Source: Solidesulfovibrio sp.
GTDB lineage: Bacteria; Desulfobacterota; Desulfovibrionia; Desulfovibrionales; Desulfovibrionaceae
Direction: 5' to 3'
DNA length: 46,125 bases
NCBI RefSeq assembly: GCF_029978005.1
Contig: NZ_JARKOZ010000053.1
Location: forward strand, 1 to 46,125
How positions within the stretch are numbered: position 1 is the first letter of the stretch; the number at the start of each line of letters is the position of its first letter. The notes beneath the pieces are model-generated. The model was given only the letters and a program-made list of their open reading frames with translations. It did no database searches and was not told the DNA's origin. Shown here piece by piece: positions 2,350-7,522 of the stretch. Position numbers and translations under genes: made by a program.

Positions 2350-3015
2350 ATGATGGACATGCTCGGCGACGCTTGGCAACTTTTGCTGCGGCTCGATCTC
2401 GTGCTGGACCGGCTGACGGACGGGCTGGGGACCTGGACCTACGCGGTCATCTTCCTGGTGGTGTTCGTGGAGACGGGATTCGTGGTGACGGGCTTTCTGC
2501 CGAGCGGCACGCTGCTGTTCGCGGCGGCGGCCCTGGCGGCCCGGGGGACCCTGTCCTTCTGGCCGCTTTTTCTGGGCGGCACGGCGGCGGCCTTTCTCGG
2601 CGACCAGCTCAACTACGCCTGGGGCCGCTGGCTGCGCCGGCCGCTGGGTTCCCGGCGGCTGCCGCGGGCGCTCAAAAGCGAACAGATCGAAGCGGCGCGC
2701 CGGGCCTTCGACAAATACGGCCCCATGACCATCGTCCTGGCGCGCTACGTGCCCATGCTGCGTTCCGTGGTTCCCCTGGCGGCGGGGCTGGCCGGCATGC
2801 CCGGGCGGCGCTTCGCCTTCTACAATTTCTGCGGCAAGGTTCCCTGGACGCTGCTCTACGTCTGCGGCGGCTACTACCTGGGGCGCATCCCCTGGTTCGC
2901 CAAGCATTTCACAGCCGTGCTGCTGACGGCGGCGCTCTTTCCTTTTGTCATCGCCGGCGTCCGGGCCCTGGCGGCCGCCCTCGCCTCGCGGCGCGACAAC
3001 GATCAGCCGCGGTGA
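2350..3015 (+). CDS. DedA family integral membrane protein
   Basis: A 221-residue protein of the DedA / SNARE-associated (VTT) family, inner-membrane proteins linked to lipid carrier flipping and membrane homeostasis. Hydrophobic segments lie at about 30-52, 55-85, 135-165 and 185-210. The family signatures are visible: ETGFVVTGFLPSGT near residue 38, an Arg-containing RYVPMLRS segment with AAGLAGM, and the FYNFCGKVPWTLLY stretch. Three closely spaced ATGs (2350, 2353, 2359) leave the start uncertain, and the ribosome binding site is weak. The 3' end overlaps the convergent glycosyltransferase by 13 bases. The 157 bases between ogt and this gene show no confident element. Confidence 0.9.
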   Translation: MMDMLGDAWQLLLRLDLVLDRLTDGLGTWTYAVIFLVVFVETGFVVTGFLPSGTLLFAAAALAARGTLSFWPLFLGGTAAAFLGDQLNYAWGRWLRRPLGSRRLPRALKSEQIEAARRAFDKYGPMTIVLARYVPMLRSVVPLAAGLAGMPGRRFAFYNFCGKVPWTLLYVCGGYYLGRIPWFAKHFTAVLLTAALFPFVIAGVRALAAALASRRDNDQPR

Positions 3016-3719
3016 AAGAGGCCGAAGCGGGCGATCCACCAGAAGGCGGCCAGGCCGTCACGCCAGCCGATCTTTTTGCCTTCCTCATAGGTGCGGCCGT
3101 AATAGGATACCGGCACCTCGTAGATGCGCGCCCGCAGCCGAGCCACCTTGGCCGTCAGTTCCGGCTCCACGCCGAAGCGGTCGCTCTGGATGCGGATCTT
3201 GCGCAGGATCTCCGTGCGAAAGACCTTGTAGCAGACTTCCATGTCGGAAAGGTTGATGTCGTTGAGCATGTTGGAAAGCAGCGTCAGGGTCTTATTGGCC
3301 ACGGAGTGCCAGAAGTAGAGCACCCTATGCGGCCCGCCCAAAAAGCGCGAGCCGAAGACCACGTCGGCCTTGCCCGCGTAGATGGGGGCGAGCAGGACCG
3401 GGTAGTCGTCGGGATCGTATTCCAGGTCCGCGTCCTGGACGAGCACCACGTCGCCCATGGCGGCGGCGAAGCCGGTGCGAAGCGCCGCGCCCTTGCCCTG
3501 GTTTTGCTCGTGCAGCAGCACGCGGATGCGGTCCGTGCCGTCCAGCCCCTGCAAATAGGACCGGCTGCCGTCGGTGGAAGCGTCGTCCACCAGCACCACT
3601 TCCCAGGTTTCCGGCCGGGCCAGCACCTTGGCCAGCACCGTCGGCAGGGTCTGCATTTCGTTGTAGACGGGGATGACGACGCTGACGCGAAGCGTCGGAT
3701 CGGACGGCGTGACGTGCAT
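3003..3719 (-). CDS. Family 2 glycosyltransferase, polyprenyl-phosphate mannose/glucose synthase-like
   Basis: A 238-residue cytoplasmic or membrane-associated transferase. The GT-A fold is shown by VVIPVYNE at 14-21, a DDAST loop at 45-49, and the metal-binding DADLEYDP at 96-103. The C-terminal part (MEVCYKVFR, FGVEPELTAK, a YYGR motif) resembles dolichyl-phosphate mannose synthases, which charge a lipid carrier with a sugar from a nucleotide donor. It has no C-terminal membrane segments, unlike GtrB-type enzymes. The start at 3719 has GGAG upstream; an earlier in-frame start would overlap the preceding gene. It lies 17 bases after the AOR-aldolase stop and is probably cotranscribed. The substrate is not determinable. 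Confidence 0.9.
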   Translation of the reverse strand: MHVTPSDPTLRVSVVIPVYNEMQTLPTVLAKVLARPETWEVVLVDDASTDGSRSYLQGLDGTDRIRVLLHEQNQGKGAALRTGFAAAMGDVVLVQDADLEYDPDDYPVLLAPIYAGKADVVFGSRFLGGPHRVLYFWHSVANKTLTLLSNMLNDINLSDMEVCYKVFRTEILRKIRIQSDRFGVEPELTAKVARLRARIYEVPVSYYGRTYEEGKKIGWRDGLAAFWWIARFGLFHRG

Positions 3720-3736: not shown

Positions 3737-6604
3737 TCAGGCTTGTTCGAGGCCGAGCGCCTCGAAATAACAGGCGCGGCAACGGGTTTCAATGGCGCAC
3801 AGGTCGGCCAGGGCGTCGCGGAAATCGTGGCGGCCCATGGTGAACACGCCATGGCCGAGCACCACCACGCCGCGCCGCCCGGCCAGGGCCGGGGGCATGG
3901 TGTGGACCAGGCCGCGCGGGCCACAGCCCACCTCGCCCGGCACGATGGGTATGTCGTCCACGAAGCGGGAACGGTCGCAGTCCACGTGGCAGGAATCGCG
4001 CCTGGGGCAGAAATCGCTGTCGGCGCAGTCCATGGACATGATGACCGCGAACTTGGGGTGGCCGTGGAGAATGGCCCGGCGCGGGTCCCGGGCGATGAGG
4101 GCGGCGTGGGCCGAGAGTTCGCTCGAGGCGGTGAGCCCGGCGCAGGACGAGCCATCGAGCGGGCACAGGTCGATGGCCCCTTCCAGGGCGTCCAGGGCGC
4201 TTCCGGTCTGGCTTATGGCCAGCACGCCGTCCAGATTGCAGGAAATGTTGCCGAAAACGGAATCGACCAGTCCCAGGTCCACGGTGGCCCGGCCGGCCTG
4301 GGTCATGGCGGCAAGGGCCGTGCCGCTGTCGGGAAACGGCCCCTCGGCCAGGGGCGGCACGGCCGCGGGCGCGGGCGGCAGGGCGCGCACGGCGGCCTCG
4401 AAGGCGGCCAGGCGGGCGGCGTCCGGGGAGCCGGCGCGGTGGGCGGCCAGATGGTCGGCGAAAAATTTGACGAACCCGGCAAAGGCCACGGAGGAGACGG
4501 TGACGAAGGCCTGCTCGGGCGAGAGCGCGCCGTGGGCCAGGATGCCGAAGCCCGGCAGGTAGGCTCCCTTGCGCCGGGACAGGGCGGCGGCGGCGGCCTC
4601 GGGCCGGGGAGCCTCCACCACGGGGATGTCGTGGAAGAAGGTGCGCGTCTCGCAGTCCCGGGGCCGGATGGCCGGGGCCTCGCGGGCGGCCAGGTATTCG
4701 AGGACGGCGCGGTAGGGCTCGGCCGGGGGGACGAGCATGAGGCAGGCCACGCCCAGACGCGCGGCCGTCTCGGCCAGGAAGGCGTTGAGGGGAAAGTCCT
4801 GCCGGGAAAAGCTCGCCCCCTCGTCCAGGCAGACGATGGCCGCCTGCCCCGGGGCGCACAGCCCCGCCCGGGCCAGGCGCTCGGCGAAACGCCCGGTCAG
4901 GGCGTCCACCGGAGCCGGCGCGGCGGCCGGCGCGACGACGGCGGCCCCCTCCCCGCGCAGGCGGCGGTACTTGTCCCGGGCGGCCAGAAAGGCCCGGCGA
5001 TCCAGCGGCGGCACGACGATGCCGTCGCCGGCCGTGCCCGGGTGGGCGAAGAAGCATTCCGGCAGGTCGTCGGCCGATGCGTCCAGGCCCTGGAGCCTCT
5101 GTTGCGCCCGCTCGCGGCGCACCGCCCCCTCGCCCAAGGCGGCCAGGTCGCCGGCCGAGACGGCCTCGCCCGTGACGGCGCAAAGGGCCAGCGCCCATTC
5201 CTCCAGGGTCACGGCCAGGGAAAGGAAGGCACAGCCGCCAAGGCTCTGGGCGGCGGCCAGGGCGTTTTCGCCGAGCGCCACGGCCCGGGCCTTGCCCTCG
5301 AAAGTGAAACGGTCCGTGGCCACGGGCTTTCGCAGCAGTTCGTGGGCCAGACAGCCGCCGCGCCAGGGATCGGGGCCGCCCGTCCCCACGGCCAGGGACA
5401 GGGACAGGCCGCAAGCCCCGCGCGGATCGAAGGCCGGAAGCGGCACGCCCTTGACGGCCAGACGCAAGCAGGCCTCGATCTCCCGGCCCAAGGCGTCGCC
5501 GGCGGCCAGGGCGGCAAGCCCTTCGCGCACCAGGGCGGCGTCCGGGGCGATGGCCCGGCCCGTGCCCCAGGCGGCGAGGCAGGCGGCCGCACCGGCCGGG
5601 TCCAGGCCCTGGTCCAGGCAGAACCAGCGAGCCTCCACGGCAAGTTTCGGATCGGCCAGCCCCAGCAGGGCCGTGAAATGGGAGAGCGCGTCCGCGTCGG
5701 GCAAGAGCCGCCCGGCCGCGTCCAGCCGGCGGCAGGGCACGGGGCAGCCCGGGCAGGAAACGCCGCGGACGCCCTGGCCTTTGCCGAGGGCCGGGGCGTT
5801 GACCAGGGCCGTGGCCGGGAAAAAGGTGGCCCGGAAATCGTTGGTCGGCTGCATGCGCCGGCCGTGGGTCAGGTCGACCAGGGCGGCCGTGCCGTGACTG
5901 CCGAAGCCGCAGGGGCCGGCCAGGGCCGGCGAGGCGGCGATGAGGCGGTCCATGGCGGCCCGGGCCCGCGCGAGGCCCTCGGGGTCGGCGACGGCCACGC
6001 CGCCCGTGCCGAAAACGGCCACGTAAACGAGGTTTTTCGCGGCCAGGGCCAATCCTGCCCCGGTCGGTCCGGCGTCGTGCCAGCGGTCGGCCACGACCGT
6101 GGCCAGACCCGCGCCGGCCCGGGCGGCCGGCCCGCAGACCAGGGCCGCGTCAAAGGAAGACAGGGCGTCGAAAAGGGCCGGGACGGGCAGTTCGGCCAAT
6201 TCCCCGGCCGGGACCAGGCGGGCCTCGCCGTCTTCCAGGCACAGGCCGACGGGCTCCGGGGCGCGTCCGGTAACGACCACGGCCGCGAGGCCGGCCCGGG
6301 CCAGGGCGTGGCCCAGGCCGCCGCCCAGGGAGGCGACGGCCGGGCCGCCCGTGCGCGGCGAGAAAAAGGCCAGGGAGAGGTGGCCGCAGCCCGGCAGGTC
6401 GCAACCGGCAAGGGCCCCGGCCGCCAGGCACAGCGGCGCGCCGGGGTCGTCCCAGGCAAGGCGCGCCGGCGCGTCGCAAAGGGCCGTGGCCAGGGCCCGG
6501 CCGCCGCGCTGGCGCGAAAGGAGCAGCGGCGGGGCGGCCTCGCGGCGCACGGCGGCGGCGGCGAGATCGACGCGCAAAACGGCGGGAACGGGGCGTGGGG
6601 GCAT
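3737..6604 (-). CDS. Fusion of aldehyde:ferredoxin oxidoreductase with class II aldolase/adducin domain
   Basis: A 955-residue two-enzyme fusion. Residues 8-550 follow the AOR family (tungsten or molybdenum bis-pterin and one [4Fe-4S]): the N-terminal domain with a GGGLGHALARAG stretch, the cluster ligands C284, C287, C291, and distal C458. Residues about 765-945 are a class II aldolase/adducin domain with FGNISC at 784-789 and the zinc set seen in fuculose-phosphate aldolase: E829, H847, H849, H918. Residues about 660-720 look like a second, degenerate aldolase C-half (H691-G692). Between H849 and H918 lies a cysteine-rich insert (C860, C866, C872, C876). The ATG at 6604 has AAGGAG upstream. 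I see no stop or frameshift between the parts. The pairing suggests an aldolase producing or consuming an aldehyde that AOR oxidises, but this is inference. Confidence 0.85.
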   Translation of the reverse strand: MPPRPVPAVLRVDLAAAAVRREAAPPLLLSRQRGGRALATALCDAPARLAWDDPGAPLCLAAGALAGCDLPGCGHLSLAFFSPRTGGPAVASLGGGLGHALARAGLAAVVVTGRAPEPVGLCLEDGEARLVPAGELAELPVPALFDALSSFDAALVCGPAARAGAGLATVVADRWHDAGPTGAGLALAAKNLVYVAVFGTGGVAVADPEGLARARAAMDRLIAASPALAGPCGFGSHGTAALVDLTHGRRMQPTNDFRATFFPATALVNAPALGKGQGVRGVSCPGCPVPCRRLDAAGRLLPDADALSHFTALLGLADPKLAVEARWFCLDQGLDPAGAAACLAAWGTGRAIAPDAALVREGLAALAAGDALGREIEACLRLAVKGVPLPAFDPRGACGLSLSLAVGTGGPDPWRGGCLAHELLRKPVATDRFTFEGKARAVALGENALAAAQSLGGCAFLSLAVTLEEWALALCAVTGEAVSAGDLAALGEGAVRRERAQQRLQGLDASADDLPECFFAHPGTAGDGIVVPPLDRRAFLAARDKYRRLRGEGAAVVAPAAAPAPVDALTGRFAERLARAGLCAPGQAAIVCLDEGASFSRQDFPLNAFLAETAARLGVACLMLVPPAEPYRAVLEYLAAREAPAIRPRDCETRTFFHDIPVVEAPRPEAAAAALSRRKGAYLPGFGILAHGALSPEQAFVTVSSVAFAGFVKFFADHLAAHRAGSPDAARLAAFEAAVRALPPAPAAVPPLAEGPFPDSGTALAAMTQAGRATVDLGLVDSVFGNISCNLDGVLAISQTGSALDALEGAIDLCPLDGSSCAGLTASSELSAHAALIARDPRRAILHGHPKFAVIMSMDCADSDFCPRRDSCHVDCDRSRFVDDIPIVPGEVGCGPRGLVHTMPPALAGRRGVVVLGHGVFTMGRHDFRDALADLCAIETRCRACYFEALGLEQA

Positions 6605-6712
6605 GGGGCTCCTTGTCGCGTCGGGCAAGGTGCGGAAGTAGCAGATGCGCCAAAACGAGGCAACGCGCCGCGCCGGCCTAAACCTCGGCGCGTTTCGGCC
6701 GATGAGACGGAC

Positions 6713-7522
6713 ATGCAGATCGGTTCCCTCGGACAATCCACCGACGCGCTCGCGACGCTTCTGCCCCAAGCCCAGGCCGACGGCCACGGGCTCAAGCTCG
6801 GCCGCTACTCCCAGGCCGACGACACAACCACCGCCGCCCCCTCGCTCAACCTCTCGAGCAGCACCTCGGACGTGTTCGCCGCCGACATCCTGGAAAAGCT
6901 CCAGGCGGCCCAGACGGCCAGCAACGCCGGGGCCCTGGCCGCCGGCGGCGCGGCCGGGGACCTCCAGCAGTCCTTGGCGGAAACCATCGACTACGTGCGC
7001 GAAAAGCACGGCGACGCCGCCGCCACGGCGGTCATGGGCATCATCGTCAAGGGCGTGGGCGACGGCTCGGGCGGCGAGGACGCCCTGGGCAATGCGCTCG
7101 TCTCCTCGCTCAAATTCATCGACCGCAACTTCGGCGTCTCCTCGGGCGACGCGGCCATCGCCAAGTTCAACGGCGCGCTCAACGACGCGGTCAACGGCTA
7201 CTTCCAGAACGGCCACGACGAGCTGTTCTACGCCTCGGACGGCACGGGCGGCGCGACGAGCGACATCCAGAACACCCTGTCCGCGACCATCGCCGACGTG
7301 GCCGACAAGTTCGGCAAGGACACGGCCGAGGCCGTGTCCGACCTCATGACGCAAAGCCTCCAGGAAACCGGGGTCAACCGCCAGGGGCTCGGCATGGCCC
7401 TGGACGCGGCCGACGCCTATCTCACGGACCAGTACGGCGCGTCGGCCGGATTGGGCCAGGCGCTCCTGGCCAGCGACGCCCCCCTCCTGCCCAAAGGCTC
7501 CCTCGTGAACGTGACGGCCTAG
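6713..7522 (+). CDS. Hypothetical protein with a duplicated ~60-residue module
   Basis: A 269-residue, Ala/Asp/Gly-rich, cysteine-free protein that I do not recognise. Two segments, about 83-145 and 184-246, are clearly related: each begins D-[LI]-Q-x-[ST]-L-x-x-T-I, continues with a helix ending in K-x-G, then x-x-x-A-x-A-V, and ends with a Tyr/Phe-x-D motif before G-[AV]-S. The modules are 101 residues apart. There is no signal peptide or membrane segment. The composition resembles secreted or flagellar-associated proteins, but that is weak. It is divergent from the AOR fusion (108 bases between starts), and its last 4 bases overlap the convergent methyltransferase. The ribosome binding site before 6713 is poor, so the start is moderately certain. 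Confidence 0.75.
   Translation: MQIGSLGQSTDALATLLPQAQADGHGLKLGRYSQADDTTTAAPSLNLSSSTSDVFAADILEKLQAAQTASNAGALAAGGAAGDLQQSLAETIDYVREKHGDAAATAVMGIIVKGVGDGSGGEDALGNALVSSLKFIDRNFGVSSGDAAIAKFNGALNDAVNGYFQNGHDELFYASDGTGGATSDIQNTLSATIADVADKFGKDTAEAVSDLMTQSLQETGVNRQGLGMALDAADAYLTDQYGASAGLGQALLASDAPLLPKGSLVNVTA

Follow-up and report, generated by a model that had tools for sequence, protein, structure and literature searches.

An oxidoreductase–aldolase fusion in Solidesulfovibrio, a candidate aldolase for the salvage of S-adenosylmethionine by-products

A stretch of 46,125 nucleotides from Solidesulfovibrio sp. (contig NZ_JARKOZ010000053.1 of assembly GCF_029978005.1, positions 1 to 46,125; hereafter the window) encodes a single chain of 955 residues in which a homologue of aldehyde ferredoxin oxidoreductase (AOR) is followed by a class II aldolase. 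As judged from gene comparisons, this chain fuses the two members of a conserved gene pair. We propose, with a probability of about 0.5, that it carries out the aldolase step in the salvage of S-adenosylmethionine (SAM) by-products known as the dihydroxyacetone phosphate (DHAP) shunt, the AOR partner oxidizing the released aldehyde in lineages where its pocket is intact, whereas in the genus studied here the usual pocket residues have been replaced. A DHAP-shunt aldolase appears the most likely identity because the chain is the only class II aldolase match of its genome, which also codes for methylthioadenosine phosphorylase (MTAP) and MtnA and in which no ARD was found. Beyond the presence of these genes, every part of this scheme is one that we infer.

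The fused gene and its split relatives

The features of the fused gene, and of the gene next to it, are the following:

3737-6604, minus strand: fused AOR–aldolase gene of 955 residues, with an AOR-like domain, a linker, a degenerate aldolase-like domain and an active-type class II aldolase (single open frame; Pfam)
6609-6614, minus strand: ribosome-binding site AAGGAG, 4 bases ahead of the ATG at 6604 (read from the sequence)
4952-6604, minus strand: AOR-like domain, residues 1-551, with AFOR_N at 9-199 and AFOR_C in two stretches (homologous to 1aor, 9g7j and 8c0z)
5732-5755, minus strand: cluster ligands C284, C287 and C291 (invariant in 47/47 aligned AOR partners)
5690-5692, minus strand: D305, in place of Glu313 of Pyrococcus furiosus AOR (alignment)
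5429-5431, minus strand: F392, in place of Tyr427 (alignment)
5366-5368, minus strand: P413, in place of His448, within the motif GPD[PA]W of 11/11 genus sequences (alignment)
5231-5233, minus strand: cluster ligand C458 (invariant in 47/47 aligned AOR partners)
4910-4951, minus strand: Ala/Pro-rich linker, residues 552-565, at the position of the AOR stop and the aldolase start of relatives (comparison with relatives)
4334-4909, minus strand: degenerate class II aldolase-like domain, residues 566-757, lacking the zinc ligands and carrying its own motif D-x-E-[TS]-R-T-F-x-H-D-x-P (hhalign)
3740-4333, minus strand: class II aldolase domain, residues 758-955, with E829, H847, H849 and H918 (PF00596, 5.2e-21; residues invariant in 53/53 aligned aldolases)
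3977-4027, minus strand: four-cysteine insert C860-x5-C866-x5-C872-x3-C876, a possible Fe-S or zinc site (all four in 45/53 aligned aldolases, none in 8)
3003-3719, minus strand: family 2 glycosyltransferase, directly downstream of the fused gene (neighbourhood comparison)

The frame runs from a start at 6604 to a stop at 3737-3739 without internal stops, so that the uninterrupted gene described in the initial annotation was recovered together with its own ribosome-binding site, and the eight metal-site residues named there (C284, C287, C291, C458, E829, H847, H849 and H918) all stand at the numbers given. The Pfam matches to AFOR_N (E=1.7e-35), AFOR_C (E=8.6e-38) and Aldolase_II (PF00596, E=5.2e-21) are all above cut-off and far beyond chance.

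We compared this gene with those of 59 related genomes, a set that includes the source genome (G000, of the same genus as G006), and with a sample of 395 genomes of the phylum, from which 40 aldolase loci were fetched and 38 could be assessed. The usual state among the relatives is two overlapping or abutting genes, one for an AOR of about 560-610 residues and one for a protein of 390-430 residues that corresponds to the remainder, with a border that corresponds to the linker of the window protein (about residues 552-565). Thirteen genomes of the genus have both parts: two are fused (G000 and G001), ten are split, and in one, Desulfovibrio sp. DV (G013), the genes only seem fused. We rejected this last case, in which the AOR frame changes near query residue 460; the change, at about 4304-4582 of the fetched stretches L040/L036, may be a sequencing error or genuine. 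Since the split copy of G003 is the sister of the fused window copy in both trees, with the fused G001 outside, at least two changes between the fused and split states are needed. In the phylum sample the aldolase protein was found in 42/395 genomes (E<=1e-30), as a single-domain form in five of them (family f23), and AOR lies upstream of it on the same strand at 31 of the 38 assessable loci, with no more than 261 bases between the two matches except for 673 at L099, which has an incomplete AOR match. Of the other nine loci, seven showed no AOR within the fetched stretch and two run into the end of a contig. A third fusion occurs in this sample (L126, genome G355), so that fusion appears from these comparisons to have recurred, in G001 and, independently, in G355.

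At the joint of the window gene the second start is a GTG with no visible Shine-Dalgarno sequence, and the former AOR stop, preceded by a G-rich stretch, can still be read in a neighbouring frame, so that a one-base error could mimic a fusion. A sequencing or assembly artefact, in which case the cell would make two proteins, is nevertheless improbable in our view: the two genes of the sister G003 and the persistence of the old stop are what one would expect of it, but the ATG and Shine-Dalgarno sequence of G003's second gene are absent from the window, the linker measures 44 bases against 34 in G003, and the G001 joint lacks a stop in any frame across more than 300 bases, which makes that fusion independent of any single base.

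A replaced oxidoreductase pocket and a tandem aldolase

Section 5 of a recent survey of tungsten oxidoreductases describes Thr243, Glu313, Tyr427 and His448 (P. furiosus AOR numbering, used below) as pocket residues that vary little, especially among aldehyde oxidizers (PMC13328260). We mapped them by aligning the canonical partner L052 to 1aor, the P. furiosus enzyme, and by an alignment of 47 AOR partners. The window protein keeps the threonine (T239), whereas the three others are replaced, and R444 and D489 have become G409 and Q453. All 11 genus sequences share the changes of Glu313 to Asp and Tyr427 to Phe, with His448 changed to Pro or Ala; R76 is histidine or phenylalanine in the genus, and we take D489 and R76 to serve the pterin. 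Glu, Tyr and His are all kept in 25 of the 47 partners, that is, in 25 of the 36 from outside the genus, while three sequences change Glu alone, two change Glu and Tyr, and 17 change all three (the 11 of the genus, G023, G028, L093, L098, L114 and L126). R444 is kept in 33/36 and D489 in 34/36 of the partners outside the genus, and both in 0/11 of those within it. The description of a complete AOR thus does not hold for this chain. Both AFOR domains score above their Pfam cut-offs and the four cluster cysteines are present, as in every aligned partner, but three of the four pocket residues typical of aldehyde oxidases have been replaced. From its sequence, this half is an AOR homologue that we do not file among the aldehyde-oxidizing AORs, and in the genus as a whole the usual aldehyde oxidation has probably been lost.

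From sequence, the replaced pocket may be dead or remodelled. The conservation of GPD[PA]W in all 11 genus sequences speaks for a retained use of the pocket, and among six genus members pN/pS, a rough measure given the codon bias at this G+C, is 0.33-0.63 for the AOR half and 0.27-0.50 for the aldolase half. Because of these values we regard the AOR half as less constrained than the aldolase, yet not as a free pseudogene. All three fusions seen (G000, G001 and G355) have a replaced AOR pocket, whereas in G098 (L096), a congener of G355, the genes are separate and the pocket is intact. Fusion may therefore follow pocket loss, although three cases are too few for proof.

In the aldolase half, residues 758-955 form a class II aldolase domain above the PF00596 cut-off with its glutamate and three histidines, and E829, H833, H847, H849, H918 and E939 are invariant in 53/53 aligned sequences. 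A Pfam scan gave no match for residues 565-752. In a profile comparison with hhalign based on the 53 sequences, residues 566-757 matched the C-terminal domain with 95.7% probability (P=8.5e-9, 107 columns); the controls, three AOR segments and 30 column-shuffled profiles, gave P>=0.38 and P>=0.04, respectively. This comparison supersedes an earlier one with 20 sequences (54% probability, P=1.9e-5). As far as these profiles tell, the aldolase half is a tandem in which a degenerate copy precedes an intact domain. No HxH zinc ligands remain in the degenerate copy, which is marked by a distinct motif, D650-x-E652-[TS]-R-T-F-x-H658-D659-x-P661, in which D650 and E652 are found in 53/53 sequences and the other positions in 43 to 52. 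The intact domain bears, after its HGHP motif, the four-cysteine insert, and the eight sequences without any of its cysteines all come from family f38. Beyond the 53, cysteines are lacking in L121 (f38), L127 (f31) and L128 and L129 (f23), and present in L114. Such an all-or-none pattern is as expected of a bound metal or Fe-S cluster, which the insert may hold, but is no proof of one. L128 and L129 show another layout, a cysteine-less, single-domain aldolase of 199 residues shortly after a canonical AOR, possibly an older form of the pair.

A candidate DHAP shunt and its alternatives

Anaerobes rich in radical SAM enzymes must dispose of 5'-deoxyadenosine and methylthioadenosine, and we know of no established route by which sulfate reducers do so. 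In the DHAP shunt, as outlined in sections of two earlier reports, a kinase or phosphorylase, an isomerase and an aldolase convert 5-deoxyribose to DHAP and acetaldehyde (PMC6079011), and methylthioadenosine yields DHAP and 2-methylthioacetaldehyde (PMC10986504). By analogy, MTAP and MtnA would act on 5'-methylthioadenosine to give 5-methylthioribulose 1-phosphate, or on 5'-deoxyadenosine to give 5-deoxyribulose 1-phosphate; cleavage by the C-terminal aldolase would then yield DHAP together with 2-methylthioacetaldehyde or acetaldehyde, respectively, and AOR partners with an intact pocket would oxidize the aldehyde using ferredoxin. We had initially thought of lactaldehyde as the product, an idea replaced by acetaldehyde in view of the portions of those reports that describe the shunt (PMC10986504, PMC6079011). 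In the genus, the AOR half has kept its fold and cluster cysteines and lost the usual pocket residues, and it may now be remodelled for another reaction or help the aldolase structurally or by sensing redox state, a role that repeated fusion would fit.

Several observations on genome content are in line with this proposal. The fused chain is the only PF00596 match of its genome, and 12 of the 13 genus genomes with such a match likewise have just one (G011 has two; G002, 69% complete, has none). The genome encodes MtnA and MTAP, both over cut-off, without ARD, although other methionine-salvage genes were not searched for. ARD and FucI were found in none of the 14 genus genomes (rhamnose isomerase was not searched for), and the usual methionine salvage and fucose breakdown are thus not indicated. 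As no second PF00596 match exists in the genome, a separate MtnB, which we take to be a member of that family, would also be lacking. Of the 59 relatives, 21 have a listed aldolase match and 20 of these carry MTAP (E<=1e-75), against 4 of the other 38 (p=7e-11, uncorrected for kinship). The four with MTAP and no aldolase are G002, in which only an AOR fragment was found, G014, G020 and G025. Two of these, G014 and G025, have MtnA and MTAP clustered with a class II aldolase domain, which in G025 is joined to MtnA in one gene; this MtnA–class II aldolase-like fusion lies at 2801-4531 of L148, shortly ahead of MTAP. In the source genome, MTAP adjoins apt and is divergent from a gene for an amidohydrolase that matches 5'-deoxyadenosine and methylthioadenosine/S-adenosylhomocysteine deaminases below their cut-offs. 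The protein encoded after MtnA (L145, 4882-5673) resembles, by eye, a Thi4-type thiazole/ribulose-1,5-bisphosphate synthase.

Other results weigh against the shunt. MtnA is present in 57/59 relatives, discriminates nothing and was rejected as evidence of that kind, and G018 has the pair without MTAP. In the phylum sample the association with MTAP (E<=1e-60) is weak, 23/42 aldolase genomes against 131/353 others (p=0.03, kinship again uncorrected), and MTAP falls below threshold in the nine f38 genomes that have the pair, in three f72 and five f23 aldolase genomes and in G192 and G203; a nucleosidase together with a kinase could replace it. The f31 genomes G083, G211 and G304 have aldolase and MTAP with no AOR in the fetched stretch. 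Searches by tblastn with the MtnA and MTAP of the source genome found neither at any fetched pair locus, so that the mtnA/mtnK/mtnP cluster of known shunts is not seen there (mtnK was not searched for). Finally, the aldolase reached no equivalog cut-off of NCBIfam: the best match of its C-terminal domain, to the PRK08660 aldolases (NF006413), scored 124.6 bits, under a cut-off of 203 bits that was exceeded in one of 14 control genomes.

The aldolase might instead act on another deoxy-sugar phosphate of the fuculose or rhamnulose 1-phosphate type, releasing lactaldehyde, or catalyse a different class II reaction (decarboxylase, epimerase or dehydratase). A phmmer match to 2fk5 (E=2.4e-7) is compatible with this, and L-fuculose-1-phosphate aldolases were the top Foldseek matches of a low-confidence model of the aldolase half; but DrdA (6btg, 6btd) was also matched, which leaves the two substrates unseparated, and given the absence of fucI from all 14 genus genomes we consider this alternative unlikely. 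The half of the model that aligned was not indicated, and the Foldseek result was not used as proof of the middle domain.

The role of the AOR half is a distinct question. True bifunctional channelling, in which this half would oxidize the aldehyde of the attached aldolase with ferredoxin at a reshaped but working tungsten site, is compatible with a DHAP-shunt aldolase. The invariant cluster cysteines, the persisting purifying selection and the uniformity of the new pocket within the genus, which looks like remodelling and not decay, are in its favour, but the five replaced residues in 11/11 genus sequences and the faster change of the AOR half make it improbable. The AlphaFold models were no help, with a mean pLDDT of 44.8 for the full chain and 56.1 for the aldolase half (from shallow alignments of 6 and 4 rows), too low to guide us on a tunnel or on cluster geometry, and were rejected for that purpose. 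The initial idea that the partner handles the released aldehyde stands at the level of the family, where AOR genes neighbour the aldolase across the phylum sample and an alcohol dehydrogenase-type gene appears instead in f72: aldehyde oxidation is plausible for relatives whose sites are intact but doubtful, like channelling, for the window protein with its replaced pocket. Somewhat less remote, though still doubtful, is a pseudo-enzyme: the AOR half would carry its Fe-S cluster as a scaffold for the aldolase or to sense redox state on its behalf, and the aldolase might bind a second cluster in its own four-cysteine insert. The replaced pocket of all three fusions, set beside the intact and separate G098, agrees with it, but split copies with a replaced pocket also occur (nine genus sequences, G023, G028, L093, L098 and L114) and AOR is also paired with cysteine-less aldolases. 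More speculatively still, and at a somewhat lower probability, the pair might be a salvage module of Desulfobacterota, a tandem aldolase plus AOR, in which some lineages lost the tungsten site, kept the Fe-S ligands and by repeated fusion turned AOR into the Fe-S regulatory half of a redox-gated aldolase, maybe with a second cluster in the insert.

Known systems and gene neighbourhoods

Ald2 of Escherichia coli and DrdA of Bacillus thuringiensis are reportedly single-domain proteins, and the fused chain is unlike them in its tandem with a degenerate copy, its four-cysteine insert and its AOR partner or fusion. They cluster with mtnK/mtnA, whereas no mtnA or MTAP was found beside the pair. The likeness, as far as the portions of the reports compared here go, lies in the class II aldolase family and in genomes that have MTAP or a kinase, and MtnA (PMC10986504, PMC6079011). 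In Arabidopsis DEP1, too, a domain of the class II aldolase family is joined to another enzyme of its pathway, and according to the relevant part of PMC6079011 DEP1 also cleaves 5-deoxyribulose 1-phosphate; it differs in its partner, a HAD phosphatase, and in its role in methionine salvage. P. furiosus AOR and the Class I tungsten oxidoreductases share with the fused chain both AOR domains and the four cluster cysteines, and the chain departs from the P. furiosus enzyme in the replacement of E313, Y427 and H448 and in the attached aldolase. Compared with Classes I-V of the 2026 five-class scheme, its single large subunit resembles Class I; in the parts of that scheme compared no class has an aldolase, and the word 'aldolase' is absent from its main text (PMC13328260).

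The open-access literature contains no description of an AOR–aldolase pair that we could find, and nothing relevant on AOR with methylthioadenosine, on the DHAP shunt with ferredoxin, or on Desulfovibrio class II aldolases with iron-sulfur clusters. The first impression that no enzyme of this layout had been characterized agrees with that search, which is no proof of absence. If the proposed role is true, the pair would constitute a ferredoxin-coupled DHAP shunt and give a role to a group of tungsten oxidoreductases that was not found in the main text of their current classification. Lineages with a replaced pocket offer a natural progression, from an enzyme through a possible pseudo-enzyme to a fusion, that ordinary biochemistry could test.

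In family f72, AOR was not found beside the aldolase. Upstream there is instead a gene of the zinc alcohol dehydrogenase type, adjacent to the aldolase in L124 and L125 and separated from it by about 0.6 kb in L123. Between L123 and L124 this alcohol dehydrogenase-type gene is 68-69% identical; in L124 (6331-9387) an LsrF-type aldolase gene precedes the alcohol dehydrogenase-type gene, and the L125 locus is on the reverse strand. Either partner, oxidase or alcohol dehydrogenase, would be expected for an aldolase that releases an aldehyde.

BioB and TrmO are SAM users. In G028 (L057, 5016-8137), genes for ThiL, BioB, a BioY-like protein (by eye) and TrmO run into the AOR–aldolase pair, and clustered homologues occur in G023. 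These genes upstream of the pair suggest a link to SAM metabolism, from cases that are too few. Within the genus, the neighbourhood of glycosyltransferase and a 269-residue protein was rejected as functional evidence because it is not conserved beyond the family. The glycosyltransferase adjoins the pair in this genus only, among the loci compared, and is probably functionally unrelated. The 269-residue protein, encoded divergently at 6713-7522 of the window, has no Pfam match; its homologues, with 38-69% identity, neighbour the pair in G022 and in a further 12 stretches of the genus, two of which come from one genome.

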